Below, piece by piece: positions 1-63,010 of a stretch of 64,000 bases of DNA. The stretch is from Liolophura sinensis. Its lineage: Eukaryota > Mollusca > Polyplacophora > Chitonida > Chitonidae. The notes under the pieces are model-generated. The model searched no databases. It worked only from the letters and a program-made list of their open reading frames with translations, and had not been told where the DNA came from. The number at the start of each line of letters is the position of its first letter. Position 1 is the stretch's first letter. The position numbers and the translations under genes were made by a program. Location: contig NC_088300.1 of the NCBI RefSeq assembly GCF_032854445.1, positions 54,784,984-54,848,983 on the forward strand. The letters run 5' to 3'.

Positions 1-667
1 ATTTGATGAGGGAGTGCCAGCTTACGGTGATGTACTGGATGAGGGAATGCCAGCTTGCTGTGATGTATTTGATGAGGGAGTGCCAGCTTGCTGTGGTGTA
101 TTTTATGAGGAAGTATCAATACATGTAGTTTGCCCAGGTGTATTTGATGAGGGAGTGCCAGCTTGCCGTGACGTATCTGATGAGGGAGTGCCAGCTTGCT
201 GTGATGTATTTGATGAGGGAGTGCCAGCTTGCTGTGATGTAATTTATGAGGGAGTATCAATACATGTAGCTTACCCTGGTGTATTTGATAAGGGAGTATC
301 AATACATGTAGCTTACCAGGGTGTATTTGATGAGGGAGTGCCAGCTTACGGTGATGTACTGGATGAGGGAATGCCAGCTTGCTGTGATGTATTTGATGAG
401 GGAGTGCCAGCTTGCTGTGGTGTATTTTATGAGGAAGTATCAATACATGTAGTTTGCCCAGGTGTATTTGGTGAGGGAGTGCCAGCTTGCCGTGACGTAT
501 CTGATGAGGGAGTGCCAGCTTGCTGTGATGTATTTTATGAGGGAGTATCAATGCATGTAGCCTACCCGGGTGTATCTGATGAGGGAGTGCCAGCTTGCTG
601 TGATGTATTTGATGAGGGAGTGTTCACTTAGCCTAAAATATTTTATGAGGGAGTATTAATAGCTTAC
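1..667. repeat. Tandem array A, copies of the SLC9C1 exon 19 donor junction
   Basis: Two unit types, about 33 bp and about 42 bp, alternate, and a longer block of about 324 bp is itself repeated (near 8-145 and 332-470). Read on the minus strand, a unit holds CTCCCTCATCAAATACATC, and the 42 bp type also holds CACCAGGGTAAGC. That matches the end of exon 19 (ACCCTCATCAAATACATC, then AGG and donor GTAAGC). The array lies in intron 19, directly downstream of the exon in the transcript, and reaches the left window edge, so its full length is unknown. Because unit lengths are multiples of three, a plus-strand reading frame of 205 codons runs through it; this looks like a by-product rather than a gene. 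Confidence 0.9.
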
Positions 668-793
668 CCTGATGTATTTGATGAGGGTCTCATCCCCCTG
701 CAGCCAGGCGACATTTTTCAGCAGCCTCTCTGGGGGTGGTGGAGTCATAAGTGGTGGGGCTGTGAGTAACCTCTTCATCTTCATCTCAACCAT
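668..793 (-). CDS. SLC9C1: SLC9C1 exon 19 (last exon in window)
   Basis: 126 nt, phase 0 both ends. Encodes MVEMKMKRLLTAPP, then TPPPPERLLKNVAWLQGD and LIKYIR, just ahead of the cyclic-nucleotide-binding domain. Acceptor TTGTCAG, donor GTAAGC at 667. The donor region is the terminal member of array A. Further exons lie outside the window. Confidence 0.9.
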
Positions 794-3700
794 CTGACAA
801 CAGATAACAAACTTGTAAGTCAAACCATATTCCTGCCCAACCTGTCTCCTGTTGGCTTTGCAGCATATACAGTGCCTCAGGTTAGCTCTTTCCTGCTTTA
901 AATGAATTTGTACACTTAAGGCAAATAAGAATTCACAAAACTGGCAGCTACTTCATGCCATAACAAAAGTTGAAAAGCTTCAAAGAGCACCTACATGTAA
1001 CTAGACCACTTTGGCTCCACTTCAAAAAGATTTCATTTTACTGTGCTCAGCATATATCACGTTGTTACTGTCAAAACACACAATGCTGCCATGTGGATCT
1101 GTAATCTGAATTTGGTTTCTGTACCTACTGATGTTTACTTACAGTTTCTAGCTCTGTGCTTTCTGTATCATCCAGTATGCCATCTTCGTGCAGTCCTCGT
1201 ATGGAGTCTCTCAGGGTGTTCAATACTGAGCGTACTGCCTGTCGACTTTTCACGGACATAGCCACATCAGGATGCTGCTTCTGAAGTAAACCTGGCAACA
1301 TATGACATATTCACAACATCAGGATCGAGGTTCTGAAGTAAACCTGACAACATGACATATTCACAACATCAGGATCGAGGTTCTGAAGTAAACCTGACAA
1401 CATGACATATTCACAACATCAGGATCGTGGTTCTGAAGTAAACCTGAAAACATGACATATTCACAACATCAGGATCGTGGTTCTGAAGTAAACCTGACAA
1501 CATGACATATTCACAACATCAGGATCATGGTTCTGAAGTAAACCTGACAACATGACATATTCACAACATCAGGATCGTGGTTCTGAAGTAAACCTGAAAA
1601 CATGACATATTCACAACATCAGGATCGTGGTTCTGAAGTAAACCTGACAACATGACATATTCACAACATCAGGATCGTGGTTCTGAAGTAAACCTGACAA
1701 CATGACATATTCACAACATCAGGGTCGTGGTTCTGAAGTAAACCTGACAACATGACATATTCACAACATCAGGATCATGGTTCTGAAGTAAACCTGAAAA
1801 CATGACATATTCACAACATCAGGATCGTGGTTCTGAAGTAAACCTGAAAACATGACATATTCACAACATCAGGATCGTGGTTCTGAAGTAAACCTGACAA
1901 CATATGACATATTCACAATATCAGGGTCGTGGTTCTGAAGTAAACCTGAAAACATGACATATTCACAACATCAGGATCGTGGTTCTGAAGTAAACCTGAC
2001 AACATATGACATATTCACAATATCAGGGTGCTGTTTTATTTATTTATTTGATTGATGTTTTATGCCGTACTCAAGAATATTTCACTTATACGACGGTGGC
2101 AGGCATTATGGTGGGAGGAAACCTGGCAGAGCCTGGAGGAAACCCACGACCATCCGCAGGTTACTGGCAGACCTCCCCACCTACGCCCAGAGAGGAAGCC
2201 AGAATGAGCTGGACTTGAACTCACAGCAACCGCATTGGTGAGAGTATCCTGGGTCACTAGCGCGCTAACCTACTGAGCCACAGAGGCCATCAGGATGCTG
2301 GTTCTGAAATTCACCTGAAAACATAACAGATTCACAACATCAGGGTGCTGCTTCTGAAGTAAAGCTGACAACACAACATATTCACAACATCATGATGATG
2401 CTGGTTCTGAAGTAAAGCTGACAACATGACAAATTCACAACATGAGGATGCTGGTTCTGAAATAAACCTGACAACATGACAAATTCACAACATGAGGATG
2501 CTGGTTCTGTAATTCACCTGAAAACATAACAGATTCACAACATCAGAGTGCTGCTTCTGAAGTAAAGCTGACAACACAACATATTCACAACATCATGAGG
2601 ATGCTAGTTCTGAAGTAAAGCTGACAACACAACATATTCACAACATGATGAGGATGCTGGTTCTGAAGTAAAGCTGACAACACAACATATTCACAACATG
2701 ATGAGGATGTTGGTTCTGAAGTAAACCTGACAACAGGACAAATTCACCACATGAGGATGCTGGTTCTGAAATAAACCTGACAACATGACAAATTCACAAC
2801 ATGAGGATGCTGGTTCTGAAATTCACCTGAAAACATAACAGATTCACAACATCAGAGTGCTGCTTCTGAAGTAAAGCTGACAACACAACATATTCACAAC
2901 ATCATGAGGATGCTGGTTCTGAAGTAAAGCTGACAACAGGACAAATTCACCACATGAGGATGCTGGTTCTGAAATAAACCTGACAACATGACAAATTCAC
3001 AACATGAGGATGCTGGTTCTGAAATTCACCTGAAAACATAACAGATTCACAACATCAGGGTGCTGGTTCTGAAGTAAAGCTGACAACACAACATATTCAC
3101 AACATCATGAGGATGCTGGTTCTGAAGTAAAGCTGACAACATGACAAATTCACCACATGAGGATGCTGGTTCTGAAATAAACCTGACACCATGACATATT
3201 CACAACCACAGGGTGTTGCTTCTGAAGTACACCTGACAATTATAGAATTACTAGAATCAATTTTCGATATATGGATTTGTGAACACGAGAAAAACAATTA
3301 AAATCATCCATGAACCATAATCTGACAAAGATACCATTTTTGGTGGTTAAGCTACCTTAACATAACATACATGTAGTGTTTACATATCTCTAATAGAAAA
3401 CATCACACACTTTGATGTTGCTATTATGTGTCTGTCAGTTTAATACATGTGAATGACTGGCAGTCGACTTCAAAAACCCCATTTTACAAACATCCATAAA
3501 ATGGACTCTCATTGTACAGGTAAAAAATTCTTAAGTAATGCACTAAACAGTAATCAAATAAATAAATTCTAGCTATTATGGACCTGCATGAACTAGACTA
3601 TAAACTTGCCCAGTGTTTTGATGACCTCCAGCTGCCCAATTCTGGACCCATCCATGAGCTGTTTGGCAATCTCGCTATTGTCTATGATGTGGTTGATCAG

Positions 3701-6700
3701 CTTACTGACCTCCTCCTCCCCAGTCACATATCCACGGCCCACATCGTAGCCGAAGTTCAACCGCTTGTGCACCACATGTTTGATGTAAACTAGCAACAGG
3801 GGTAAAACTGGCTGCCGGTAGAAACACAAAAACAACACTTAATGTTACAAACTTGTAACATATGTTTCCATTAACGCAATATATGAAAAAATATACATGT
3901 ATGAATGCTTGGGGTTTAACCTTTACAATTTTTCAGTCATATATCGAGGATGAGCCATTTGGTGGGTGCGCATAGTGTGTCTTCTTGTGGTAGGGTAAGT
4001 CCATGCTGCCAAAGTGCTGCTGCCACTGAATTATCATTCCGAAGACACCACACATGACACCCCACCCGGTTACATTATACTGACCAACCAGCCCTTTTGC
4101 CTTGCTCTAACCCCTCAGTGCTGAGCAAGGCAGTAACAAGTACAATTTTTATGACCCAACCTGGGACTGATCCTGAGGTCTCAAGACTTCGAGGCAGCCG
4201 CTCTAACCATTAGGCCACCGAAGCGGTGAAAACATATATAACATGATACTTGTAAAATGAGGGATCACAGAGCACAATCTGACTTTTCCACATTCATCAG
4301 CACAAATCTGTCACCCATAATTCTAATTACTCATCAGATCACAATCAGAGAAGAGTTAATTGTAATTTAGGGTTTATAGAGAAACACCTGCATGTAACTA
4401 CAGCAATTCCATGTATATAAAATATATATGAATAAGCACAACTAAAAACTGTGACGCTTGTTTTGCATTTCGTCATCACTCGTGTAAAATGGGTTTTTGC
4501 TTTGTCACCTTGTAATACGCACTGTGATATCTGATTAATTATTTCTCAAATGTGACAGCAGCTAATTTCCTCCAGTGAACAAAATTGTTTGTTTCAGCTC
4601 CTTTTTCAGAAAGTGATTTACTGTTTGAGTTATTTTAAAATTACATGTAAAATAATCGTGATTGCTTGTAACAGAATTTTTGTAAGCTGTTAATAATTTT
4701 CTGGGTACTGTGTATCCCCTGAAGTCTGCCCACCTCTATGAGACGAGCTAAGCGAATAGTCCTGAACAGGCAGAAGCTGTAGAGTATGGTTTTAAATGGC
4801 TCCTGGCTGTGTGTCCCGTAAAAAGCCACATGAAGAATCAAGTCAACCACACCCTCCACTATGATAAACACACAAAACTGGTTCCAGCGTGATGAGAAGT
4901 AGGACAGTCTCTGATCAATGACCTGTAAACACAAAAACATATGCTCTGGAAACTGGCAAATATATACACATTCAGGTCAACATACACAGAAACAGTACAA
5001 TGGCTTTTAATCAAATGGCTTTCATCCAAATTCAATTTTGAACATAAATAAATCACAACAATTAAGTTGTTAGGCCCTAACTGGGTTGGTGTATTCTGCT
5101 CACTCACACTATGTAGCTACATATACGAACCATGACAGGCTAAACAATCTCTGAGCACCACAAGCCCACCAGCAGTTTACCTGTGGTGAGATTTTGTGAT
5201 GGTTGTGGAATTTTACAGCTGGCCATTCATCATGCCCACATATCACAGCAGTACAAGCATATACATAATTCTCCACTACCTATAAACAAAAGCTATACTA
5301 GAATACATGTGTTAATTAAATGCAAAAAGGCCTGCTGAAGGAGCACTGGAGACAAGCATGTATATGTTACTGAGAGTCCTTAGCCTTGTCAGCCCAGCTG
5401 GTGTTGTAATTTATGTTTGTCCCTATTCATTCCTTGATGAGAGCCTACCTTTAGAATGAACTCTGTGATGTACAGAGCCATGATAAAGACAGAGCCTATG
5501 GTGATCTTCATCTTGTGTTCTTGCAGTCCCCCATCCCAAAACACCTCGTAGACTTCCAGCACCATTAGACCCATGTCCAGAAGAACCACAATGCACACAG
5601 CCATAGTGAAAAACACAGAAACTGTTATTTCATGCAGAACCTGCAGGATCCGATTGTCTTTCACTGGTTGCTCTGGTCTATATGTCCAAATTTTCAATAG
5701 TCGCTTCTGAAACCACCCAAAAACAGGGAACATGGACACATAGATATTTGATGCCACATGCGAGCAGTTCACTCACATGACGGTGGTCAATTTTATGGGT
5801 TGAGAAACCCAGAGTCTCCAGAGTAAACCACTGACCTTTGTTGAATATCTGACAAATTCGTGTGATGGAGAATTTTCTCCATGTGCATGCCACACTGGTG
5901 GATAGCAAGTGATTTTCAACTTTCATGTACAAGACCACCTATGTGGCGCTTACAAGCCTTGTTGGCCACATATTGCCACAAATACCCCAAGAACAGTGGA
6001 ACTAGGTGCACTATTGGCTTTTCACGCATTATCACGCGAGATTTGTTATATTGGGGGATAGATTGTAAACGTGAATTAGCGAGTCACATGGTCTGTCTGG
6101 CTGAGAAAAGCCAACAGTGCGCCACAATGGTACAGTGGGGACAGGGCCGGGAATCTTTGTCCAAAGTTAAAACAAATGAACCACACCTAGTGTGTCAGAT
6201 TGCATGTTTTAAAAACAAGCATCTGTACCATTTGGTTATTGCATCTCTCTTCCACATGTTCAATTAAACTGAAAGTAACCAGTTATGCTTCTTATAATTA
6301 TCAGATGTACATATAAATTCTAGAATTTGGAAGTTACATGTACGTGTGCAGCAAAATATAACAGCAAAGAAAATCTTGAAACACTTTTCAAAACAATATG
6401 TTGCCTAACAAAATGTGTGCAAGCCTGAAGACGGCCTTACCATTTTGATGATCCAATTTGGCACGCGCCAACTCCCCTTGATATCAGCTACGTCAATAAA
6501 CCTGAGATCAGAGAACCCTTGTTTACAATTGTTAGTAAACATTCCCAGTATTGATATCATCATAGGAACATATTCCTTATCAAATGAAGTGTAACAACAA
6601 CTTGTAAAATATAAAAACTTACTAATAAATAATTTGTGTTTAGTATTGTGATGAACTAAAAATCTCATGATATTGTCTTTCCTGCTGCACGCTGTCAAAC

Positions 6701-9700
6701 AACAGCCCCTTATCAAACTGCATATGTGGATTCTTACATCAGAGCCTGATGTTTTCATGAAGCAGGGACAAACATAGGTGTATATTTAGAAGTACCTCAA
6801 AGGCTGACTTTTGGTTCTATTTGGACAATGTTGAACAAATGCTCGGATGAATTTATTTATTTCCTGGTTTCCTAGAAATATTTCGCTGATGAAATGTAGG
6901 TCAGTTTATGTTTGGAGGAGTGTAACTGACATTTGGCAAGTTGCTGAGGAACATTCAAAAATATTACCTACAGACAGGGACACCATATTGGTGGAAGACA
7001 CATGGTCTTTAATGTATGATGGTTATAACATAAGCTTATTGTCACAGAGTTTTCTCAAACAGTGAGAGATGGGAATGCACAAATTCTCTGTCCATGGCAG
7101 GGATTGAACCGCCAACTTGTGTGTCCTAACCACCACTCCTTGTTCTGACAAACAAGTGTCAATCAACAGTGATCAATGTGAGATTAAGGCATGTGCATGA
7201 GCACACCTCACCTGTCCTTATCCTGGGCTACTTCAGCACATTCTTTCAGTTTACGCACAGCTTCTCTAGACAGCATTCCGTTTAGGAACTGGCGTCTGTA
7301 GCTCATCTGGAGAAGGCAAGCAAACATGGATTCCATCAAAACAATTGTATTTCCCATTTTGATATTTCAAATTCAATATACATAACAGAAAAAAAAACAG
7401 AGATTGCATCAATGTATACTTTCATTAAAACAATTAAGTTTATGACAAGTTCGTAAAGAAAAGTTTCTTCAAGAGAGAAAAAATGAGGTTAATAGCATAA
7501 TAACACAAAACCAAAAATATCAGGCTCCATTTTCTCTTTGTCTGAAGCAGCCTGCCACTATTCAAAGGCATGGAGATGCTTTTCAACAAGTTTCCAGACA
7601 TTCATACTTCTGCCCTCCTTCAATGGGCTTCAGACCTGCATACAATCTAATGGTCATAACAAGAATTAAAACTACATGTAACTATGAAATAAACCAATGA
7701 GTCGATTTACCTGCGATTACAATTACTGATAGGTTTAACAAGTAGTTGCCACGGATAATAAATGCATGCACCTACAAGAGGCCAACGTTTGAACAAAGCA
7801 CACTTCACATAAGAAAAGGCCTTGATTTTCAGATCACAGGCTTCGCAGCGTCACAATTTTTTTGAAACACAAAGCGATCAATTCTAAAGCATTTTATACT
7901 GATACTGACTATAGTCAAACAAACCAATACGTCATTCAGGTGGATTCAAAAGTGATGGATTTTATTTATCTTTGTGATAACCTTGACACACTGCCATCTC
8001 TTTGATGACTTCCAGTTTAGATGGCATTTCTGGTAAGTATTTTTTTCTCTGTGTCAGAGAATAGGTTGTAATTCCATTACAAAATGTAGGAACTGAATGG
8101 TGGAACTCACTTACACTAACTTTCCATTTCAGAGCACCTAAAACTCAACAGCAGAACTCTAAAATTTAGTTGTCAGTGAATGATATATGAATGAAGGCTC
8201 TTTAAACTTCAGTTAAAGCTGACACATTTTGGGGTTTGGGTTAGCTGTCAAATAAATGTGAGCTACCTTCTCAGCCTTCAGCATGCGTAGGGTTGCTTCT
8301 CTCTTCATCTCCTTTAACTCCTTGGGGGTGGGGTTGGGAGGCAAAGAAGTTTTACACTCAGGGCAAGTACTTGCAACACGAATATCACTTGCACCACTCA
8401 AGTCAGCCTGGAATGCAAGAGGTTTCAACATAACCTGAATCTTGATTTGTCCAAAATTCATTGTTTTAAAAGAAAATGGGAGTATTGTTGATTCCACAGA
8501 TTAGCTTAGCATAGTAAAGTAATTGTAGCAACACCTCTGAGAGAAAAGAAGACGATGCACTGTGATTCAATATACAGATTATCTTGAAAGTGGTCAAATA
8601 TTTACAGAAATACTGTATCCGTCACTGAAGTTGCTATGTACAGCAATAGCATGTGTATAATCTGCTCTTCTGTATTCTTTTCAGGAAACATGCAGTTGGC
8701 TTCAAAACACAACACAATTGAAATAAAAAACACACAAAAGATTCTAATAAAACAAATTCGAGAATTATAAGGCATGAAAAATTCTTTTTTTTACACTGGA
8801 AAACAGAGTGATGCTTTTACTTTATAACAAAACACTTAGCCATAAGTATGTAAACTATAAACAGCAACTTATACAAAGTTTTCTAAAACAATTATATTCT
8901 CCCACATGATGAAAACCAAATCATTTCGTTCCACCACAATGTTGGCTGTTGTCATAAAAGAGAAAATACTCTTAAGTATGGCATAAAACACCAAACAAAT
9001 AAATAAATGAAGAACACAATGACATAAATTCTTCAGATCTTTTTTAAAGCATAAATTTCAAATGGTCAGCAGATGAGCAGTATGTAATCTAGATATGTAT
9101 TTTGATTGATTAATGTATTTATTTCATTGGTGTGTTATGCTATACTAAAAAATATTTGACTTATACGACAGTGGCCAGCATAATGGTGGGAAGAAACCGA
9201 GCAGAGCCAGGGGGAAAGCCACGACCATCTGCAGGTTGATGACAGACCTTCCCACGTATGGCCAGAGAGGAAACCATCATGAGCTGAACTCACAGAGACC
9301 GCATTGGTGAGAAGTTCCTACCTCATTGAGCCGTGCGGGCACACTCAAGATATATTTTGACTGCTTGTGTGTAATATAACAATAAAAAAAAACAATCCTC
9401 CTTACATTCTGAGAGATGTTCAAATGTGCTGCAAGGCTACATGTACAAAAACATGTAATTGTGAGAAGATAAGCTGTTAACAAGACTAACCTCTCTGTCT
9501 GTGGTTTCATAAGGATCATCAATCTCTGAAGCCTTTTCCACAAACTCCCAGTCAGCATCTGCTAAAAATCTGCAACATACAAACATTTTCATACTTTTAC
9601 AAGTGTCTTGCCTGTTGCAATGGTTTACAGTATTTCTGTACATTTCTAAGTTAGGCATCTAATGTCTTTCAATGATTATATACATGTATGTCTGTATTTT

Positions 9701-12700
9701 AAACAGCCAAAGTATTTGGTAATTATATTTCATTATCACCCCCCCCCATAAATTATCACACAATATCAGATTTTTGCAAATTACCTCACTATACCAAGTG
9801 TGTAAAAACTGTAACATTAAAACACCATACCAGGTATTAATATCCAACTACACAAGGCATCTGTGTTTGCAGTATCTGTGCTGGCCTTGGAGACACTATG
9901 TTACATGTCATCAGCATATGCTGAACATGGCAGAATTGTGACTGGGTAAATACCTGGATGTTTTCAAGATATTAAGACTCTTCTCCCTGCGGTCCTTCAG
10001 ATGACGTACAGCACTGGCCATGGCCATACGCTTTGGCTGAGACACATCACTCATACCTGAGCCAATACAATAAAATGTATTGTGCACGATTGACATTTTG
10101 AGGTCAGGCCACAGAATCATGCAGCAATCTTAGACTTTAGTCAAAATTTCAAATCACTTTAAAATAGTTATTTCTAACATTACAAGGTCAAAATATGGCT
10201 TGACGACATAAATTCTGGATAAGTTACTGTAAAACAAATTTCAGTTAAATTTTCAGTTTAATGATTGAAATTTTGACTTAAGTGATCCCTTGGCCAGAGT
10301 CACTTGCAAATTGTTCCTTTCACTTCTGGAGCTCATACATTAGCAGTTTAGCAGATTCACTGACATCATCATGCATTTACATCCATAGATCATACATTAA
10401 AATGAAGGTCAGAATCATAGACATTTTGTTCTAGTCACATCAGGAGTTCATGCATTATCCGAAGGTTACGCACTGATAAACAATATATTGTTCCAAATTG
10501 AAGAGGAGACATACCCAGTAGTTTTAGCAGCAGTTTGATGGTGGTGCCATTGATGAGCAAAGTGAGTACAACAATACCCGAGACTTGGATCAACACCTGG
10601 CATGAGATCAAATAGGAAAGAGGAAAAAAGCAATTTTTAATAAAGGACTTTTCACTTTTAGTTTTAATTTATTTATTTACTTAGTACATTATTGTTTACT
10701 GCCCTACTCAGGACTTACATGATGGGTGTCAGTTTTATAGGTGAAAGAAACTGCAGAGCCAGGGGGAAATCAGATCTTTGGCAAATTAATTACTGATGAA
10801 CTTTCCAATATGTGATGTAGAGCTAGGCATGCCATATTAATGGAATACTACACACACATCCAAAAGATGTGTGGTTTACCACTTATTGCAAGCAAAGCCC
10901 TACAAGCTGTGAATTTGCTTTACAAAGCAGTATGAATGTACACCTTTTAATTGTGCATCCTAGCGTCTGAAAGGCACTACAAGTGCATTGATCGATCTAT
11001 AACCACTAAACCACAGTCCGCTCCCTAAATGTAACTGTGTTACAAGAGTTTATCAGACAAGTTAAACACCTAACACAGGCGTTAGGTCCAAATGGTGTTT
11101 CTTAATTCGGGCGCTCAATTTGCATGCCATGTTTGAATTAGTTCATGGGCCAAGGCCCAAAATTTCACATATTTGTACCACCCAAGACGGCCAAATCTCC
11201 TTGTTATTTTTAAGTTGGTACATGTCTTTAGTTCATGTTTTGATACGATAGCCCTCGTAGATGGGCAGCATTGTATGGGATATGCCCCCCTACATAAACA
11301 TACTTATTGTTCAATGTGCTAACTCATATATTGCAAACAGTCATACAATAACAGTGCCTTTTGAACCCCTCATCAACTCAGGAACAGAGGGTTTACCTTT
11401 AGGAACACTTCCTTAACTAATTCAAGCTAACGTTCTCAAACAGAATAGCAGATTTGCTGATGAAAGATGACATTTTAGCCCTATCTGGGTTGGGAGGAAG
11501 ATAAACTACAGAAGCCAGAAGGACTTCATCAGCAGTTTTCTTTGCAGTCAGAAAACGACAGAAGACACAAAGTTTATGTTTTATAACATCTTAGAGCATT
11601 CTGTCATGGTTGTGTTAACAATTAACTATTGACTTCAAGTCTAAATATCCAAATGGTAAATTCCAAATGGCACGCATGACCCCAAACACCAAAGGAAACT
11701 GCAAGACTTTTGATTCTTCCAGCGGGACATTAACACTCTCATTTATCTGTCCGTGGGTGCCATGGATGTTTAATCAACATCTTGATTTGATGTCTTAATT
11801 GCATGGTGGCTTTAATTACAGAACCCTGGGTGTTGGCAGTCACTGGTTTGTTGTATAGTCAAGCTGTCTGGATAAAGGAGAAGACTACTCTTCTCTTCCG
11901 AAAAACAAAGTAAAGTGATTCATCCAACTCACTCTGAAACATGATTGTTTGTTGACGTTTTGACCTTGATGTTACATGTACATCTGTCAAGAGCAGCACT
12001 TTTTGATTTAGAAGAACATTCCTTATAAGAAGAATTTTTCATTGTACATTTTCATTAACTCCTACAGTGTGTTTCTGTTCCTCCTGTGCTACTTCTGGAG
12101 GAATTAATGAATGATTATGGATTAACACCGCTATTTCTGGAGGAAGACTCTTCTTTGTGTACATTCTAAAGCTTCTCATGCAGCAACAAGGTCCGTCTTA
12201 TGTAGGGTAAAGATTCTTTGGTCAAGTTTTTGGTTTGCTGTTCTATGCTGCTATCTTCACCAAGCGCGCTCATCTCTAAAGAGAGTGTTTTACGCCATAC
12301 TCAAGAATATTTCACTTATATGACGGCGACCAGCATTATGGTGGGAGGAAACCAGACTGAGCCCAGGGGAAACCCACAACCATCCACAGGTTGCTGCAGA
12401 CCTTCCCACATACGGCCGGAGAGGAAGCCAGCATTAGCTGGACTTGAACTCACAGCGACCGCATTGGTGAGAGACTCCTGGGTCACTACGCTGTGCTAGA
12501 GCGCTAACCAACTGAGCCATGGAGGCCCCTAAAGAGATCATGAGTTCTATCAAACAATGTTTGAGTGGAAAGTTCTGGAAGTAGCTGATCCCTAGAAAAT
12601 CTACAAGTGAAATTAAAGATTAATCACAAGCATCTTTGGATAGTACTATCAAGTCTGTTTCATGGTAAAAATGCTACTAAACTAGCATGTTACATGTTTG

Positions 12701-15700
12701 AAATCTGTTTGTGTTCAAGTCCTGTTGTCTGATATCCATCGCCCTGTACAAGTATGTCTGTGCATTTTAATGTTGTAGTTTAGCATTCTGCATCTGTCGC
12801 GTGGCAAAAGCCCTTTGTGACATCACTGTTCACAATATGATCAGAAAAAAAACACTCAAGCATCCAGTGATTTATAGGCAATTTACTAGATTGTAAAAAT
12901 TTAATAAAAATAGTATATAGTCTGACATATGCTTCAAAACAGTGTTTTTTTTTTATCTTTTTTTAACTTCAAAGTAGACATTTACACTATGCAAAGAGTA
13001 TTACAGAATAATTTAGTCCTTAACCTTAGTGTTTGGCTGAAATTTCATTTACTGGTATTCTGGATTGAAAGTACACAAATCTGTTCAAAGGTTTGCTCTG
13101 ATATTGTAATTTTCAGACTTGTAGATAAGGAACTCACATGAGCATTTACTAACCTGAGCAAATCTACCTTCGCCCACCCTAATAATGGGTGTACATAAAA
13201 GAAGTACACAACTGGGCATACAAATATTACATGTAAATGTACAGGTCAACTCAACATTCAGCTATTAGCGTACATGAAATGTAGACAAAATGTGGACGGC
13301 TGAAATGTAGACAAAATGTGGAAGTTTCGGTGCTTCAAAAATACAAACCACCCTTTTAAACTGGTCTTATTATATAAATAACTGAGAGTCAATGATATAT
13401 ATTGACATTTTTCTTCCATTTTGTAAATTGCACACTGCCTTATAAGGTGATTTTTTAGTTTTTTTTTGTTTAGAAGCTCCCATTCAAGAAAGGCTATCAT
13501 GTCTTAATTTACTTCTACTGATCCTATAAACATGTTTGTACCAATTAAGTTTGGCCACCTCAGGTGGTATATGTACCAATATCACGTCTGGCCGATGGAC
13601 TAAATGTCATAATTGTGGCCAAAATCAAAAAACGCAATAGCAAAGAATTTATGCATTAAATCATATTAAATTGCATATTCTCAACTCCTTATTTATTAGT
13701 TACCAGTGACCAATTTTTAAAACGTCAGCATCATCTTAATTTGGCTTTCTTTGGCCATATATTGAATTTGTCAGTATTTTGCCTGCATTTGATGATATGA
13801 ACAAAAGGCAAGACCTGCAGACCTGCCATCCTTTAAAATGAAACTTACCAGAATGTTCGGAAGCCACAATTCATAATTCAAGTTTCACATTCACATGAAC
13901 CTAAACAGAATCCAATATCTGATTTTCAGTTTCTAAACCTAATTACATCCTTCAGTTCAAAAACTGCATTTTATGTTTATCTACAGTGCACTGCTCCAGT
14001 GCTGGATGACACACAGCACAGACATGATGTGGTGTTATAATGTGTATTTGGTAGTCCTCTGTACCTCACCTTACTCTTGACATGGGGGTGTATATTAGGG
14101 TCCTGCAAGACCAGCAGTCCCATGGCTAACCCCACAGCTCCACGTACTCCACTCCATGTCATCACAACCATCTCCTTCACGCTCAGTCCATAGCCAATGT
14201 GCCTCAGGATGGGCATAAGTAGACCCAGCACCATGAAACTAGACCATGAGTAAAGTATTACAAATAGCCAATCTGTCTCAGGATGGGCATTAGCAGATCC
14301 AGCACCATGAGACTAGACCAGGGGTAAATACTACAAATAGTCAATCTACCTTTAGGATTGGCATACAGTACATGTAAGTAGAATCGAGCAGAAGCAGGAA
14401 ACTAGAACAGAAATGAAGTACCACAAAAAGCCAATCTATCTGAGGACGGGCATATTAGACTCAGCACCATGGCCCAGTTGTTCAAAAGTGTACTAATTTA
14501 GCCGTTAAGCCCAGCATTAACTTTACTCACCCAAGCATACATAATTTAACTTTACTCTGGACTAAACTAAAAGTACCACTAGCTTTGCATTAGGTCAAGA
14601 CTGGTATTAAGATTTAAGCCTTAGCTTAACTTTTAGTACATCTTTGAACAACCTGCCCCAGGAAACTAGGAGTGCAGTATTATAAATGGCAATGGCAAAA
14701 ATGTGCCTCAGTATGGGCATACATGTAAGTAGACCCAGAACCCTTACCATAAAACAAAAAGTAAAAGTAGAGCATTACGGATAATCAATGTGCCTCAGGA
14801 AGGGCGTAAGTACACCCACCACCATGAAACTAGAACAGGGGCATATACCTAATAACCGGTATGCTTCAAGTTGGGCAGAACTAGCCCTATCACCATGAAA
14901 CAGGAATGAAGCACCACAGAATTGACGACTGTGATTCCAGATCGAAGGGCATACCATGCACCATGAAACTAGAATAGCAGTATTAAAATATTGCAAAGAT
15001 AACCACTGTGATTCGATCAGGGTGGGCATGACAGCAGACCCAGCACCATGGGGCCCGTCTTACAAATTAACCTGTCGCAACATGCACCTGACACAAGGTC
15101 CATGGAAATTAACGTACGCTGAAGAGATGGTAATTGGTAAACCATGGTAAATTCCCTTTACTGTATTTCTTCAACATTTTTGAACATTTGCAAGGTGTTT
15201 ATTCACTGATATTCTGAAGGCATCAGTCTTTTACACTTTTTGAGAAGCCCTGAAAATGTCCAATCCAGCCAATGCAGTTGGCAAAATCAAATTAAAAATG
15301 TGCACTGAAAGTTGATCTTTCACATGCAAAAAGGTTGAGGACTTAGGGTATTGGTATGTTGCATTGTGAGGGCTTTGAAAGGCAAAAGTAAGAAGAAACT
15401 TGAAAGTAAGTTATCAAAAAAAACCAATATACTTCATGGTTATCAGTGGACCTACATATGGCACCAAGAAATTACAGACAAAGAGTGAAGTATTACAAAA
15501 TAATAACCCATGTGATTCACGAGGATGGCAGAAGACCTAATACCAGGAAATCAGACAGGAATCAGTGATATACCAGTATTATACAATAATACTGAAACCA
15601 CAATAAAAGATTAACAGAAAATGTGCAGATACTGAGGGGAAAAAAAACACCTCACCAGGTACCTGACAAACCTAAAAATTCAGGCTTACAGCAGCTGCTG

Positions 15701-18700
15701 CTGTAATATTTATTGATTTATTTGATTGTTGTCTTCTGCCATTGCTCAAGAATATTTCATTTATACAAAAGTGGCCAGTATGGTGGGAGGAAACTGTGGG
15801 AAACCCACGAGCATCCACAGGTCAGTGGCAGCTTGACCTTCCCACACACAGCCAAAAAGGGAGCCAAAAACCATGCATGTACATATACACAAAACCCACT
15901 GGCATTGTAAACACTGTCTTTCTGGCTCATACTGCTGTAATGCATAATAACTGAAGTTATTTCACATACCGTATAACATTGACACCAAAATAGAGAACAA
16001 CTCCATAGAAGGCATCCATTTCTTCTATCTCTCCATCATGAATGGCCTTCTCTTGAATCACCAGTCCAACCAGGATAAATATTAGTGTGTTTGCCAGGTA
16101 TGCCAGCACTTCCCAAAATCTGCTCAACCAATGTAATGAATGAATGAATTCTTGAGGTTTCACATCATACTTAACAATTTTTCAGTCATATATTAAAACA
16201 CGGAGTCATTAGGAGTGTGTAAATATATCATGTTTTCTACCTTGAGGCAGGATAAGTCATGTCTTCTACCTTGTGGCAGGATGAGTCATGTCTTCTACCT
16301 TGTGGCAGGATAAGTCATGTCTTCTACCTTGTGGCAGGATGAGTCATGCTGCAGAAGTGCTGCTGCCACTGAAGTGTCATGCCAACCCACCCAGTCACAT
16401 TATACTAACACCGGACAAAAAAGTCCTGGTCATTTGCTCTTACCTCTGTGCTGAGCACCAAGCAGGGCAGCAAGAGGTCCATTTTTTTGATATGATCTGA
16501 CACAGGCTTTGTCTCGATACTCTACCAATGAAATGGCATTGTAAAACTGCTCATTGCCAATCAAATATCAGTGTACAAGTGTCATACGTCAAAACTTAAA
16601 CTGGTCAGAATACTTTAATAACAATAATGTCACTTGGAAGTACACTGTAATATGCTATACACTTACATTTTTTATTTTTTCCTACATACATGTATCTTTT
16701 TTTGGCATGTTTGATATGTTTGTGTATTCTATTACATGGACCATGAGTCTGAAATTAAGTCAGGCATAAAGTACACATGTATCAAAGATTTAATGAATTT
16801 TGAGAAGACTCAATAGCCTTAAAGTAGTGAGAGTGTAATACCTGTGCAGAAAGACCTCCACCTCTGGGCTGATATTGGCCTTTCCACCACTGACGACAAC
16901 GCCCAGGACAACCACAGCTATCACAACCTGAGACTCCTAGAAACACGTCCCCTACAGGGAGACAAGTACAGACACAGTTATCAGTGTAACTCAAAGTATA
17001 ATTGAGTCTGTTCCATTCCATATAATTGAGTGGCGGTGCCACTGTTAGCATTTACCTTCAATTTATTATTTATTTATAATTAGCTACCCCAGTACATATT
17101 GTTAAATTGTTTAGGACCTGTTTACCTATAATAAAGTTTGAAGTCCCATGTGAATTCCTATTCATGGTTTATATTTCAGTTGTTAAATTATCAATAAGAC
17201 TAGTTTCTCATAAAACTATGTATACTGTATCTGCATTATTTGCAAATACTCTCTGCTAACAGAACAAATTTTAATTTGGACATTTTTCTTAAATTTCATT
17301 AAATACAGACTTTTCAAGAACACCTAAATAAATTAACAAGAAGTGTAGTCAGTGAAGTACACACAATCATCTGCGAATTTAACAGCTTTGTATGTAAGAA
17401 ACTCAGGAATAGTTATTGTTACCTCTTCTATCTATTTCAGTTGGTTGTTTTATAAATCAGAAAACTGATCGGCACAGATATAGTTTAAATAGGAAGTACT
17501 TTGCCCTACACATGAAGGCCTGAATGCCAAAAATGGAATCTTTGATTGAAACTGCATGATTTTTAATATATTCACATTGTTGAAACTGGCTAAATGCACT
17601 TTATTTCCATAGAAACCAGAAATTTGATCAAAAAATTATGAGAAGACTTCTATTTAAGTGACCTTATCGAAACTTCACAGACAGAGTGACAGATGGACAG
17701 ACATCGTGCTGACTTTAATCATCTCTTAAATTTAAGACATTATAAGGTCATGTTTTGAATTTTCCAAATTGTGTTTCAAGACTTTTGTGTTTCAAAACCT
17801 GTGTGAACGTTCTTTAAAGCATTACATGTGGGTCTAAACTGAACTGAAAGCCAGTTTTCTAACTGGAGAGTATTATTGAATATTATTGCAGAAGTACAAC
17901 ATGAACCACCACATTTCCAATCTTTTTATACTGCAAAGATTCTGAGGCAAATAGTCTATAAATCTCACCTATGTAATATGTAATATAGGTGGACGCCAGA
18001 GTGATAGTTATCTCAACCAGTGCATCGTTGAAAATGCGTGACAGCCAGAGTAAAGTCAGTCGCGCCATGACATAGCCAAAAACCGGGCCCCCAATGGATA
18101 CTTTTAACAAATGTAACACAATCTCTCCTCCTACGTTGGATAAACAGAGGAAAATCAGCTTAGACACAGGTTTGGGCAAAAAACAAGCAACCAGTAACGT
18201 TATACTGTGGGCTGAACATTACCATACATATTAGGCGCACTACAATAGCAAAGATCAAGGCTTCAGTTTTTGGCCAGATCACAAAAACATATTATCTGTG
18301 ATCATTGTTACGGACAACATATTCAGGCTTTTAAATATTCACAAGAAAAAGTAATTTCATTTATACAGAAATGAAAAGTGCAACTGGTAATGAATTATAC
18401 CTCCCATATAGTCCTTTGGAGAGAGAATCTTTTGAAAGACAGTAAAGAGAACTATGGCTGCTCCATCATTCAGTAGAGATTCACCTTCAATAAGCATGGC
18501 CAGCTGCTTAGAGGTACCTGTGTAAGAGTATTACACAGCGTATGCATACATGTAGATTACATTTTGGAATTTAATTATTACATTTATTATTTATATAAAG
18601 GTGAAATGTCAAGATTTGACTCAGTTTGATATCACTTTTACTATTACATTGTGATATTTCACAACCACACGCCATTACATACAAAAAGAAACATTTTGTT

Positions 18701-21700
18701 TTTTGATGTCCCAATCCAAGCTCTGCGAGATGACATTATAATACAAGTTTAATCACGTTTTACATTCCTCTGTCTTGTGGGTCATCATTTGAATCTCTCA
18801 CTCGAGCTATATTTATGGTATTCATGCAACCTTCACTGTGCAATATTCTCTATAACTTGAACATTAAATAATCATACTAAATTTCACAAAACAAAATGAC
18901 ATCCATGTAAGATTTTAAAGTCCAACACAAACTACTTGAAGGACTGAGGGAAAAGTCTTTCAAAGTTTGCACCTGTTGGAAAACATCATGTCTCTTTGCC
19001 ATCTTTATTTCATTGTTTGAATTTGTTTATCAGCCAGTATTTCAAATGAAAGAACATTTATCTAGTTGATTGATATTATCTCACATATATTCTTCACTTA
19101 TACATGTATAAATATTGGTAGTCACTTTCATGGGTTTAGGAAACTGGGGTGCCCAGAGTAAACCAACAGGTTGCCTTCAGCAAATAACTGGTGAATTGTC
19201 ACCAAATCATAGAGAACAGGAAAATGAAGGCAAGTTTAATCAATTACACCTTTTTTTTTCTCATAAAATAAGAATTACTGATACTCAAATGTCACTATAC
19301 AGAGGTCAAAATGTTTGGTCATTCATTTGTTTATAAAAATGATGACTTCAAACTGATTCCAGGTCATCACAAAGAGAACTTTATTCCAAGCAAAATTTAT
19401 AATTCCTGACACATCAATGAATGTTTATTATATTTCATTCACTTTCATGTTACTTCATCAATTATCCTAATGGAATCTGATGTATTTCACATCTGGAAGT
19501 TAAATGAGCTTAAATTTTGTTAAAGCCATCACTCTGACAAGCTCAAAATATCAAACATTTGACCTCTGCCTCAATGACTGAAGTAAATTTAAATGTAATT
19601 TGAATACAATCACATTTTACAAAGAACATGTACACAGTTAAAATATTTGTCTCACCCAATTCTCGCAGAAGTGACACAACAGCGACAGGGTCTGTTGCGC
19701 TGAGAATACAACCAAACATCATGCCGACATTCCATCCCCAGTTATAGTCGCGGAACAGATACACTGCCATTAGGCAAGTCAGAAAGGAGGCAAAGACTGA
19801 AAGGGCAAATGAGGGACAAGGCAATTTTAGTAAGATAAAGTAGTTCCTGTCTTCGACAAGCATGCCATTATCATACAGAGTGATAGTGACAGTTTAAAGT
19901 AACTGTGAAACTGACCTGCGAACGACATGTGAAGATGATATTTAGAAATATCCTTTATACATAAGTACACTATGTTTTCGCATTACATTACATCAGTACA
20001 ACAACAGTGTCATCCTCATGCAAATTTTTTTTTCCGTATTTGAAACCAAAACCCACAAAAGACCATATTTGAGAAGATCAATCCATTACACTGATAATGT
20101 TAAATTAGTTTTATGCACTCTACATGCATATATATATATATGTATATGTATACCATAGAAAAAACGTGACAAACTCAACTTGTTGATTTAGCTTACTAGT
20201 TTCGCCGTATCATGACGGTTCCTAAAAGCTTTTTTCGTATATATATATATATATATATATACATACACACCACCCCATGTTAAAATTGGCGGACTGAACC
20301 AACCATGCCACATCACAAAGGAACTTAAATTTGTTTTCGTCATGCCATCTCTCAAATCACACATATTTTAATGAAGGTGTTTAATGGTGAGAATTAAACA
20401 ATGACTTGTTTATATTCTTTATCACATTAAAGTTAGCTAAACAACACACTCCAAGCTGTTATAGCCCATATCTCACACACGACAGGTACAGTATGTTCCT
20501 TATCTACTCCAGGTATAGCCAACATCTGACGGACTATAACAGACAAGCCACACACAGGTACAGTACGTTCCTTATCTACTCCAGGTAAAGCCAACATCTG
20601 ACGGACTATAACAGACAAGCCACACACAGGTACAGTATGTTCCTTATCTATTCCAGGTATAGTCAACATCTGATGGACTATAACAGACAAGCCACACATA
20701 GGTACAGTATGTTCCTTATCTACTCCAGGTATAGCCAACATCTCACGAACTAATAACAAACAAGCCACTCATAGGTACAGTTTCTTACCCAATCCTGGCA
20801 CAGCCAACAGAAGCACCTGTGAAAAGGACTTGATGAACGTGTGAGCTTCCATGACAAAAGCTGATTCAAAGATGAGGATAGGTAAAAAAATGTGAAGAAG
20901 GAGATGAGGGTCCACTTCAGAAATAACAGCATACTGATGTAACGCTTCACTCAACTTCGATATGAATCCAAAGACAATTCCAATAACCAGTAGTAGAACG
21001 GTGTAAGGGAGATGAATACGCTTGCCTAATTGAAGTAGGAAAGCTGGAAAGAGAGAAAAAAAAGAAAAAATAAATCGCTTTCACATGGATGGGCAAGTAT
21101 TCAGATACAAAATAAATGAAGGCCCTCAAAGAGGTGATTGTGATGACAAAATGTAATGAAATGAGTACTGACTTTCAAATGATTGATACAGGTCTATCTT
21201 GATATAATGATACTCATCACGTTGTGTTCCTTGAACTGTAGAGTACTGTAATAGTTGTTATGCGTGCTAACAGTATACTGTGATCTGTTTTGATTATCAG
21301 ATCTAAAAGTACAATATATCAGGAGAGGAATACTCCATGGTTAGAACGTCTAGATGTGTGGTCTGTATGGTTCAGAACAGCAAAAGGTGTATCCTAATGC
21401 ATGTGATGTGACTATTACTAAAAGTTTCTGAAGCTCAATGTCGGGTCTTCAATACAAACCATGCACCATTGACATATATCATGTACTTTACGTGTCTGCT
21501 GCAAATTTTGAGAAGAACATTCAGTACATGTATCTGTAGCTTGTTTTGTTACACTTCATGAACTTCACTGAAGTAATAGTTAGGATCAACTCACATAGTT
21601 CATACAGTTCATAGCAAAGGCTTTTCACATGCGTTGAAACTGTATAATTCCAGCATCTGCAAGCTTAATTCATTTCACATTTATTCTTTGAAGGTAATAA

Positions 21701-27430: not shown

Positions 27431-27535
27431 TAACAACACGGACGACACAGTTGGTTTCTAGGGAAGATAATACAGTAAACAAGATGAACATTCCATGAGA
27501 TGGTAGGCCTGTAGGCCTATACAAACAGAACACAC

Positions 27536-30500
27536 ATGGTTATTCAGCAACGTGACGAAGACCGCGAAAAAAGGCGATCTTCAAGAGATAAACGGCTAGT
27601 TGACAAAAGTGGAATCATGGATGTTCTGCTTCATACCTCTCGAGACTCGACGCCATCTGCCTGGCAAGGCAAGCAATCCAGACAGCGCAGCGAGGGAAGC
27701 CGTGGTCAAAGCTCTGTGGGGCACACGAGAACCTCCGGCAGACAAGCATTTGAACTGCCCGATAATAGCATAGGCGATCGTCTGGAAAAACTGAAGAAAA
27801 TCTTTGAGACCGCAGACGACGACGGCCAAAATGGCCTGAGTATGGACGAATTTCACACGGCGATGAGCTCCACTATTGGACAGAGGTTAAGTCGGCGTGA
27901 CCTAGAGCTACTGTTCATGAAGGTGGACGCTAACTGTGATGGATCTGTCGACTGGGAGGAATTCGTCACCTATATTCTGTTGGAATTCCAAGAGAAGAGT
28001 TTGATGTTAAGAATGCTGAAAGAGACACCTTTTCCAAATGAACGCCGTGAGATTTTCAGCCGACACAGGGACACAATTTTGAGTGTAATTTTTTTCTCTT
28101 CTTCGAAGGCTGTAGATTACACTTCGGGGCGTTATGTGACTCTGGCGAAAGACGGAACAGTGAGTTTCTGGTCACTCGAGTTAAAGCTGCAGCATAGCTA
28201 TCGTGTGGGTCAGAATCGAGAGAGGTTAACACCGGTTTGGATGACCAATATGGTGAGCTTACCTAGCTCCAGCATGATTGCCATAGCCTCCACAGATCGG
28301 GACATTATGTTTTATGATCTGGGTGCTAAAAAGTTTTTTAGGAAATACCTAATTAAGGGTCTTGAACATTGTGTGAATTGTATGGATTATTGGGTGGATG
28401 TGGCGAATCCCAGACAGGCTGTCCTAGCCTGGGGTGACATGGCAGGGAACGTTTATGCAGTCACATTCCAAAACGTTTCCTCTGGTTGCTTGTTTGGGAC
28501 ATCCCGGACCAAACAGCAGTTGGAGTGTAAGAATGTAACCTTATCAGAACTGCAGCGAGGCCTAGTACCCGGGGTTAAGCTTCACCGGCAGCTTAATATT
28601 CATGAGGGGTGGGTAAGTCATGTTCGTTACATCCCCGAACTGGCATCTTGTGTTTCGTCCTGTGCTTCAGAAGGGACTGCCATGTACGTCAGCGACTTCG
28701 AAAACAAAAAGTGTGCATATTTCAAAATTCGTAAAGGCCTTCTTTGCTTCGACTACTGTCCGAAGAACAACATCATTGTAACCGGCGGTATGGATTATTA
28801 CATTAGGGTTTGGAACCCTCACGTTAATGCTAAAGCGATATTCGTTCTGAAAACCCACAGCCAGCCGATCACACACATATTGGTAAATCACGTCAGGGAT
28901 CACTGTATTAGCTTGGACAGGAGTAAAACGGCCTGCATTCACGATCTGGCAGACCAACAACTATTACAGAAGATAAGCGGGCGGGCTATGAACATGGGCA
29001 CCGTTCCGGTCACGGCGGTGTTCTTCAATCCTAAACTGCAGTCTCTGATTCTAGCAACGGATCACTTGGCCGTCTTGGAGAAGAAGGAAGAAGAGGAGAG
29101 ATTCAGTGATGTTCTTAGTCACAACAAGCCAGTTTGTGCAGCCTTGTTCAACCCGGCATTCCAACAGGTTGTCACGGCCTGTGAAGGCTCCGTGGTTAGC
29201 GTTTGGGATATAAACACAGGTAAGAAAGGTATGCAGTTTCTTAATGCCCACAAGCGATATCACAACGGCGTAGAATTACCGGTAGAGATCACGGCCATGT
29301 CATTTGACGCGGGAGGTAGGCGTCTGATTACCGGGGCTAAAAATGGCACAGTGAAGATGTGGAACTACAACAACGGCTGTTGTATCGTGGATTTTAAAGT
29401 TCCTGATGGTAAAGAGATCACAGCGGTTTTTCACACGTCTCATCGGATCTATGTGACCGGCTGGAACCGTCAGGTAGGAGTGTTCATAGAAAGTGGGACG
29501 AATAATGACTACAAACCATGGCGGTGTGTACACAGAAACGATGTTTTAACCATGGCTTTTCTTAGTCCAAACATTCTGGCCACAGGTTCTTATGACGGCG
29601 ACATTGTCGTCTGGTCTCGAGAAACAGGCCAACTTTACTGTAGACTGAATGCCAACGAAAGCCATAAACCTTTGACCGATATCGACTTATTTAAGAAGGA
29701 AAGTTTAATATCACTAGAATCAGACGGTACAGCCTCCAGCAGCTCTTCGGTAGAAGATAATTCTGCCCCAACGGGAATTATGGGAAAGAAATTGTTGCGA
29801 GCGAAAAAGAAACCAGCTCGAGTCAAATCAGCATCTGCATCCAGATATAACCCTGCGGACGTTTTGAGAAATAAGTTTAGTCATCCACTTTTGCCCGCAC
29901 TGAACGTGAATTGTGGAAAACTGGTGGTTACAGACGGTGATGAAAGTCGGATCCCTCTTCAGACACGCAAAGGCTATGATAACATATGCAAGTATTACGA
30001 AGCTGCAGTTGAATGCATTATTTTTCTTGAAAACCGTGAGAATCACAGACACACAGCTACAGTGGTTGCGAGTGGCGCTGAAGGCTGGGTGCGTTTTTGG
30101 TCCACCCACCACAAGGGAGGTCTCCTTGGGCAGTTCCGGGCTAGTCAGAGGAAAGGGGAGAGCGTGAGGGCCCTGGCTACGGACAAAGACAACCAGCTGT
30201 TGATGACTGGCGACACAGCAGGCTATCTCAAGATCTGGGACATCTCTGACTTCTGCATCAACAATGACAGCAGCAGCCAGACGGAGGTCTCTGACAACCC
30301 CAGCCTGTCTTACATTGAGGGCCTGACCTCCATGCGCTGGAACAGGCCACCCCCGGAGAGTAGTTGCCCCCTCACTACTCTCAAAGAGCCTCCCCTGCGT
30401 ATCTCGTTCCAGGCACATACCAAAGCCATCCGCCACCTGGAGTGCGTCAACGAGCGCAATATGATCATCACATCAAGCGACGACTGTTCCGTTCGACTTT

Positions 30501-30880
30501 GGACGTTCTGTGGACGTTACATTGGTACGTTTGGAGAACCCTGGCCGGAATTGCCCGGACGTATAGATCCCAAATCACTGCCTCCCAAGATTCCTGGCGA
30601 ACTGCGCCGCGTAGCCTCCGCCACCACTCTTAAAGTACTTAACGGGGGTAAACTGCCGCACTGGCGACTTGCCCTGAATATTATCCGATTCCGCGGGGTG
30701 GAACAAATAAAGCAGCAGTTTACCCATCTCACAGACCCAGAGGAGCAAAAGCCGGAGCTGAACAAACATGGAACAGAAGCTCGCCTTGGGAAGAGTACGA
30801 TTCTCGGACAATCCTACAAGAGAACAACACGGCACCGGATGGAACCAGTGTTACCTGAGCTGCGGGAAGTGTATTCAAAT
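27536..30880 (+). CDS. WD-repeat gene exon 1 (3345 nt)
   Basis: One uninterrupted exon of 1115 codons holding both EF-hands and all WD repeats, unusual for a gene whose animal relatives are split into many exons. It ends REVYSN before GTAAGT at 30881. The open frame runs ten more codons into the intron. Confidence 0.93.
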
Positions 30881-62499: not shown

Positions 62500-62768
62500 T
62501 TAGTTTATTTATTTATTTGATTTGTGTTTTACGCCGTACTCAAGAATATTTCACTTATACGACGGCGGTCAGCATTATGGTGGGTGGAAACCGGGCAGAG
62601 CCCGGGGGAAACCCACGACCATCCGCAGGTTGCTGGCAGACCTTCCCACTTACGGCCGGAGAGGAAGCCAGCATAAGCTGGACTTGAACTCACAGCGACC
62701 GCATTGGTGAGAGGCTCCTGGGTCATTACGCTGTGCTAGCGCGCTAACCGACAGAGCCATGGAGGCCC
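62500..62768 (-). mobile_element. Full-length SINE family 1 (best copy)
   Basis: Complete from tail (tttatttatttatttgattt) to head. Reading the minus strand: GGCCTCCATGGCTCTGTCGG (box A), CGCTGTGAGTTCAAGTCC (box B), CTTCCTCTCCGGCCGTAAG, GGATGGTCGTGGGTTTCC, TTCTTGAGTACGGCGTAAAA. Useful as the reference copy for the family in this window. Confidence 0.93.
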
Positions 62769-62774
62769 CCACCT

Positions 62775-63010
62775 AGTGGTTAGTGTGCTAGTGCGGAACA
62801 CCGACCCAGGAGCCTCTCACCAATGCGATGGTGTGAATTTAAGTCCAGCTCATGCTGGTTTCCTCTCCGGTCGAACGTGGGATGATCCTACAACGACATG
62901 CGGATGGTCATGGGTTTCATTCGGGCTCTGTCTGGTTTCCCACTACCACAATGCTGACCGCTGTCGAATAAGTGTAATATTCTTGAGTGCGGCGTAAAAC
63001 ACCGTGGAAA
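62775..63010 (+). mobile_element. SINE family 1, opposite orientation, 7 bp from the previous copy
   Basis: ggagcctctcaccaatgcga, gtgtgaatttaagtccagct, tggtttcctctccggtcg, ggatggtcatgggtttca, ttcttgagtgcggcgtaaaa. Older than its neighbour judging by the number of differences; the two face each other head to head. Confidence 0.9.

Follow-up and report, generated by a model that had tools for sequence, protein, structure and literature searches.

Within one gene of a chiton, four tandem-repeat arrays each abut an exon, with units that carry exon and intron bases alike. How did a gene come to hold, four times over, an array built from copies of its own adjacent splice junction, and is it exceptional in this? 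We addressed these questions in a window of 64,000 nucleotides (positions 54784984-54848983 of contig C6 in a genome of 609 Mb), where the gene, SLC9C1, lies on the minus strand.

The gene carrying the arrays

On the minus strand we placed eighteen exons of SLC9C1, which keep the numbers 2-19 of a preliminary description of this locus. The sea urchin SLC9C1 is a sperm-specific sodium-proton exchanger of solved structure, and 629 residues encoded by exons 6-19 match it end to end (E ~1e-159). All acceptors are AG and all donors GT but one, the GC donor of exon 17 (window 3609), which opens intron 17, with array B at the opposite end of that intron. We also observed a frame shift within exon 6 (window 16842-16951, minus strand), between the GDVFLGVSG- and the VVIAVVVLG-coding stretches, which may be an assembly error, a polymorphism or a broken allele.

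The protein frame runs on across the exon-proximal splice sites of arrays A, B and C. Downstream of the window follows an open frame which, from its resemblance by eye, we take to be the cyclic-nucleotide-binding part of SLC9C1, and array A is therefore probably intronic. Beside the intron-rich SLC9C1 sit two genes without any interruption of their open frames (Table 1). The preliminary description had contrasted SLC9C1 with these two neighbours, which have minisatellites of other kinds; the contrast carries little force, since long single open frames offer few junctions to copy.

Table 1. Arrays, array-bearing exons and neighbouring genes in the window.
Feature	Position	Strand	Description
Array A	1..687, beyond window start to ~-2114	-	33/42-bp units: end of exon 19 plus donor
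Exon 19 of SLC9C1	668..793	-	Donor GTAAGC is the terminal unit of array A; sea urchin match
Exon 18 of SLC9C1	1143..1291	-	Acceptor is the terminal unit of array B; sea urchin match
Array B	1264..3239	-	50-bp units: exon-18 acceptor plus ~28-36 exonic bases
Exon 8 of SLC9C1	14070..14238	-	Acceptor is the terminal unit of array C; sea urchin match
Array C	14190..14995	-	74-bp units: exon-8 acceptor plus ~50 exonic bases
29-bp x 4 array	16228..16348	-	Inside intron 6, not junction-spanning (internal comparison)
Array D	20476..20812	-	72-bp units: end of exon 2, donor and 48 intron bases
Exon 2 of SLC9C1	20789..21043	-	Donor is the terminal unit of array D; PF00999 match there
WD40/EF-hand gene	27515-30910		1132 aa, one uninterrupted open frame
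MGAT4-type glycosyltransferase gene	59595-61121		509-aa uninterrupted open frame

Each array is built from the junction it abuts

Tandem repeats were located with TRF and by reading the sequence by eye, and all four arrays were found where they had been described, although their extents needed revision. Array A extends beyond the window, with 80 aligned copies over ~2.8 kb, and array C is longer than TRF reports, as seven further copies, some of them strongly degenerate, continue upstream to ~14995. The 33 aligned copies of array B stand beside the true exon-18 acceptor and are split at ~2045-2285 by a SINE-like insert; by eye, this insert belongs to one tRNA-like SINE family that also occurs at 9130-9350, 12305-12525 and 62500-62990. 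Array D has four copies beside the true exon-2 donor. A further array, of 28-bp units, lies downstream of the window beyond the annotated exons.

We aligned the consensus of each array's copies to the 36 annotated SLC9C1 junctions, with 300 shuffled junctions as a control. Each consensus found its own junction far ahead of all others: array A scored 54 with the exon-19 donor (next best 21, shuffled maximum 21), array B 88 with the exon-18 acceptor (22 and 22), array C 122 with the exon-8 acceptor (30 and 28) and array D 86 with the exon-2 donor (26 and 29). The true junction is the terminal unit of each array, as had been proposed. The units hold bases from both sides of the junction, with ~20 exonic bases out of 33 in array A, 28 of 50 in array B at the TRF edge (the match itself runs to 36), 49 of 74 in array C, and 21-24 of 72 in array D, the latter taken from the alignment, as TRF ends short of the exon. 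For none of arrays B, C and D did the opposite end of its intron appear among the four best-matching junctions, where the runners-up lie near the shuffled maximum.

To place the units in the wider genome, one piece of 144-201 bases from each of the four arrays was used in a genome-wide DNA search that skipped very common words. No units of arrays A, B, C or D were found elsewhere in the genome by this search, which returned only the arrays themselves, and the arrays were thus most likely born in place. This agrees with the earlier proposal that their units, which differ between arrays, arose four separate times. As a separate observation on the assembly, contig C99 of the same genome (G000; 108,685 bases) carries seven COX1 matches, one of them partial, on one strand and ~15.5 kb apart, an arrangement that suggests a mitochondrial genome concatemer.

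Junction-spanning arrays recur in other genes

The preliminary description had treated these structures as special to SLC9C1. For comparison we used six dynein heavy chain genes (g1-g6, 200 kb), fetched without regard to repeats and chosen because similarity between paralogues allows exons to be called in them. In these genes 208 exons were called, with a phase that fits between neighbours in 173 of 202 cases. Taking tandem arrays with a unit of at least 20 bp and a score of at least 100, and counting as spanning those with at least 8 exonic bases at an exon edge, we found that 7 of 24 arrays span an exon edge. The exons at these arrays have paralogue support and a fitting phase. The spread is uneven, as g1 and g3 hold three such arrays each, g5 holds one and, by the same rule, g2, g4 and g6 hold none; two more arrays overlap an exon at a donor by just 2 and 4 bases.

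Similar arrays occur at other Na+/H+ exchanger loci, which had been brought in by the first exchanger search and not for their repeats. Here three of the four arrays over the score cut span a donor, with exon ends set by eye. In an SLC9A-type exchanger (L004), donor arrays of 8.9 and 21 copies by TRF close two exons ~1 kb apart (670-1200 and 1761-2980), the first of which gave no Pfam match and was identified by eye. An SLC9B2-like gene (L007) has one exon with a donor array of 14 copies, whose 18-bp unit is under the 20-bp cut, such that it enters only the pooled comparisons of copy number and exon share. The array of locus L006 was counted as not spanning, though a donor-like site sits at its end, and a 24-bp array in L002/L003, with a score of 62 against the cut of 100, was left out.

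The total sample thus comprises seven genes and four other loci (six fetched pieces), in which junction arrays occur at donors and acceptors alike. The exonic share of the unit ranges from 0.15 to 0.81 over 14 junction arrays, as arbitrary placement of the unit predicts, and so argues against machinery cleaving the DNA at the junction itself.

Multi-copy arrays exceed random placement at junctions

Whether arrays are as common at random intron positions as at junctions had been put forward as the comparison on which the pattern would stand or fall, and its outcome depends on what is counted. Per position, using copies of 70-base stretches at a score of 50 with low-complexity segments left out, repeats were found at 48 of 345 intron points and 4 of 35 junctions in SLC9C1, and at 253 of 2215 intron points, 10 of 409 junctions and none of 202 exon centres in the dynein genes. 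Counted this way, introns are at least as repeat-rich as junctions. A per-array test is fairer, because intron points inside one array are counted many times, and we therefore compared the number of junction arrays with that expected when each unit is placed at random within its gene.

For the dynein genes, the seven junction arrays compare with 3.4-3.7 expected (P = 0.036 and 0.053), a marginal overall excess of about twofold. The P value ranges from 0.011 to 0.072 over score and overlap cut-offs and is 0.053 with introns shrunk by their arrays; introns were otherwise taken at their assembled size, and any swelling through subsequent transposon insertion would make the true excess smaller. 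The excess resides in the longer arrays: 6 of the 11 with at least four copies span a junction, where 1.4-1.5 are expected (P = 4e-4 to 7e-4), in a small sample and with a four-copy cut-off picked, out of six tried, after seeing the data. Among arrays of fewer than four copies, 1 of 13 spans a junction against 2.2 expected, a lack of excess that is less firm because TRF misses some two-copy duplications; junction-spanning copies at 5584, 14918 and 36841 of g1, which the segment test detected, are absent from the TRF arrays. In SLC9C1 itself, a gene picked for such arrays, 4 of 5 arrays span a junction against 0.4 expected when array D is included by alignment, or 3 of 5 against 0.3 by TRF alone.

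Copy number sets the junction arrays apart in a similar manner. With SLC9C1 excluded, at least four copies were present in 9 of 10 junction arrays and in 6 of 18 others at the dynein and exchanger loci (Fisher P = 0.006), and the median copy number was 11.4 in junction arrays and 3.0 in the others (P = 0.0046). The dynein genes alone gave medians of 9.9 and 2.9 (P = 0.028). Identity between copies was 93 per cent in both classes in the dynein genes and, over all arrays, 89.5 per cent in junction arrays against 94 per cent in the others (P = 0.034), which gives no clear sign that junction arrays are older; GC content did not differ between the two classes. Nor was there any pull of intron arrays towards exons, as the mean relative distance of 17 arrays (D included) was 0.49, where a uniform distribution gives 0.5.

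State of the copied splice sites

If copied sites served a purpose, their state of preservation might reveal it, and we therefore examined the splice dinucleotide in each aligned copy. Within SLC9C1, AG is kept in all 33 copies of array B and the dinucleotide in 5 of 7 copies of array C; array A has GT in 19 of 80 copies and GC in 60, and array D has GT at the donor in none of its four. Among the dynein arrays, AG is intact in 12/12 and 19/21 copies of two arrays and in 6/12 copies of g5a, GT is intact in 13/13 and 9/9, and the dinucleotide is kept in 4/6 copies of g1a and 3/4 of another array; array g1c yielded no aligned copies under the chosen settings and does not enter these counts. At the exchanger loci, GT is kept in 8/9 and 19/20 copies of the two L004 arrays and in 10/12 of the L007 array. 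Compared with both the exonic and the intronic flank over 11 arrays, the dinucleotide is better kept in six, worse kept in four (A, D, g1a and g5a) and intermediate in one, a tally in which the copies within one array are not independent. The copied sites are thus neither uniformly protected nor uniformly purged.

We also considered what use of these sites would add to the message. The SLC9C1 and dynein arrays hold 123 intact copies, and for 115 of these the added sequence has a stop in the exon's frame, such that their use would mostly spoil the message; for out-of-frame acceptor copies the exon's frame is not the one read, and use would shift the frame. We rejected the possibility that the arrays are coding repeats, with the exon extended through the array, on the basis of these stops and of array A, which stays open for hundreds of codons in a different frame and is closed in the frame of exon 19.

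Origin and persistence of the arrays

Several explanations can be set against these results. We consider it unlikely that the pattern is coincidental, that is, that an intron-rich genome full of minisatellites has some arrays straddling junctions by chance and that its richest gene was the one noticed. The high density of repeats inside introns and the marginal overall count are what such an account would predict, but it does not anticipate that multi-copy arrays should be over-represented at junctions when genes are sampled irrespective of their repeats, nor the count in SLC9C1, though this gene was picked for it. A first duplication targeted to the junction, by a co-transcriptional R-loop, reverse splicing or polymerase pausing at splice sites, would account for the multi-copy excess at donors and acceptors alike, and for the two dynein donor arrays whose start lies 2 and 4 bases into the exon. 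Yet the geometry of the unit is not fixed, TRF arrays of fewer than four copies are in no excess, and intron arrays are not drawn to exons; the mechanism, which had been suggested for this locus, finds no support here and appears improbable.

The suggestion that the copies are decoys, kept by selection to tune the splicing of the exon, fares somewhat worse still, and we think it very improbable. Copied sites are intact in most arrays and the dinucleotide outlasts its flanks in the six arrays noted above; against this stand the four arrays in which it is the less well kept and the stops met by nearly all intact copies, although regulation may also act through message-spoiling use of copied sites. 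Under intron birth, likewise raised in the preliminary description, the arrays would be left over from the gain of an intron through tandem duplication of exonic DNA (the Rogers model), which has been proposed, in the available text of these sources, for amphioxus globins (PMC3087553) and for other genes (PMC2812944). This model predicts a match to both intron ends, arrays B, C and D match one, and we give the idea scarcely any weight. Of six covered dynein junctions with an exonic overlap of 8 bases or more, one has an intron position shared with a paralogue, compared with 109 of 378 in the background, the covered class being too small to be informative.

We favour, with moderate confidence, the explanation that arrays A-D are "mirage" minisatellites, chance tandem duplications that caught a junction and were tolerated, the resulting junction arrays then being kept or amplified. 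A short stretch of DNA straddling a splice junction by chance would be duplicated in tandem, and the duplicate would then grow by slippage or unequal exchange, as in any minisatellite. The copy still joined to the exon would stay the working splice site, because exon definition would couple it to the splice site across the exon, and the remaining copies would thereby become intronic and be spliced out. The tolerated-duplication part of this scheme draws on the present analyses, general knowledge of exon definition and published splicing results from amphioxus.

The copy-number pattern further suggests that a unit under selection may keep its array from loss and so raise the number of copies; arrays that hold a real junction reach higher copy numbers than wholly intronic ones, perhaps through selection on that one unit. 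In a wider and distinctly tentative form, this would mean that junctions anchor minisatellites: duplications catching a junction would be preserved and amplified because one of their units cannot be lost, and a large share of long intragenic minisatellites in this lineage would be junction arrays. Extrapolated from few genes, such anchoring would leave very many intact copied splice sites for the spliceosome to ignore, a natural test bed for exon definition. Exons flanked by as many as tens of intact duplicates of their own splice site offer a natural experiment in spliceosomal choice among near-identical sites, and junction arrays are a hazard for gene prediction.

Comparison with known systems

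In our searches of the openly available full-text literature, we found no description of a junction-spanning minisatellite in a mollusc. The preliminary description had gone further and knew of no comparable system at all; such a system has in fact been described in amphioxus, where "mirages" are minisatellite-like tandem copies across an exon-intron boundary (PMC3087553, PMC3902484). According to the available text, they occur in Adh3 and the globin genes BflGb6 and BflGb9 (PMC3087553), to which PGBD5 and troponin C were later added (PMC3902484), and splicing past such arrays is regular, by RT-PCR for the globins (PMC3087553, PMC3902484). As far as these accounts go, mirages share with the chiton arrays a tandem unit that spans the boundary, a unit that differs per locus and varies in length between loci, and the involvement of both donors and acceptors, which in SLC9C1 are donors for A and D and acceptors for B and C, each unit being confined to one locus. 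Many, but not all, copies keep AG or GT in both systems, a feature true of arrays B and C and of most dynein arrays, and not of A and D. The mitochondrial gene order of this genome is of the chiton (Katharina) type, and amphioxus, considered as the source because of its mirages, was set aside on that ground. The chiton differs in belonging to another phylum and in having up to ~80 copies per array and more than one array in a gene. Mirages are further marked by length polymorphism and somatic instability; the chiton arrays are known from the DNA of a single assembly.

Other systems share some of these properties. Dispersed or transposed repeats occur at other sites in the genome, and the units of arrays A-D were found at one locus each. 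A 1995 paper reportedly described a minisatellite with multiple splice donor sites in human G1P3 (IFI6, 6-16); as far as that account is available, it resembles the chiton arrays in that a tandem array multiplies a donor site, and differs in being a single locus. Intron gain by tandem genomic duplication likewise involves, in the available descriptions, a duplicated piece that includes a splice signal, but it needs both intron ends from that piece, which arrays B, C and D do not provide. Internal tandem repeats have been described at exon-intron boundaries in human segmental duplications (PMC2812944), and these too are minisatellite units; unlike the chiton arrays, they are linked, in the available text, to recent paralogues with altered transcripts and new introns (PMC2812944). 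Junction-spanning minisatellites, known in the papers we found mainly from amphioxus and scattered human cases, are now found repeatedly in a chiton, implying that such arrays arise in distantly related animals and can be frequent.
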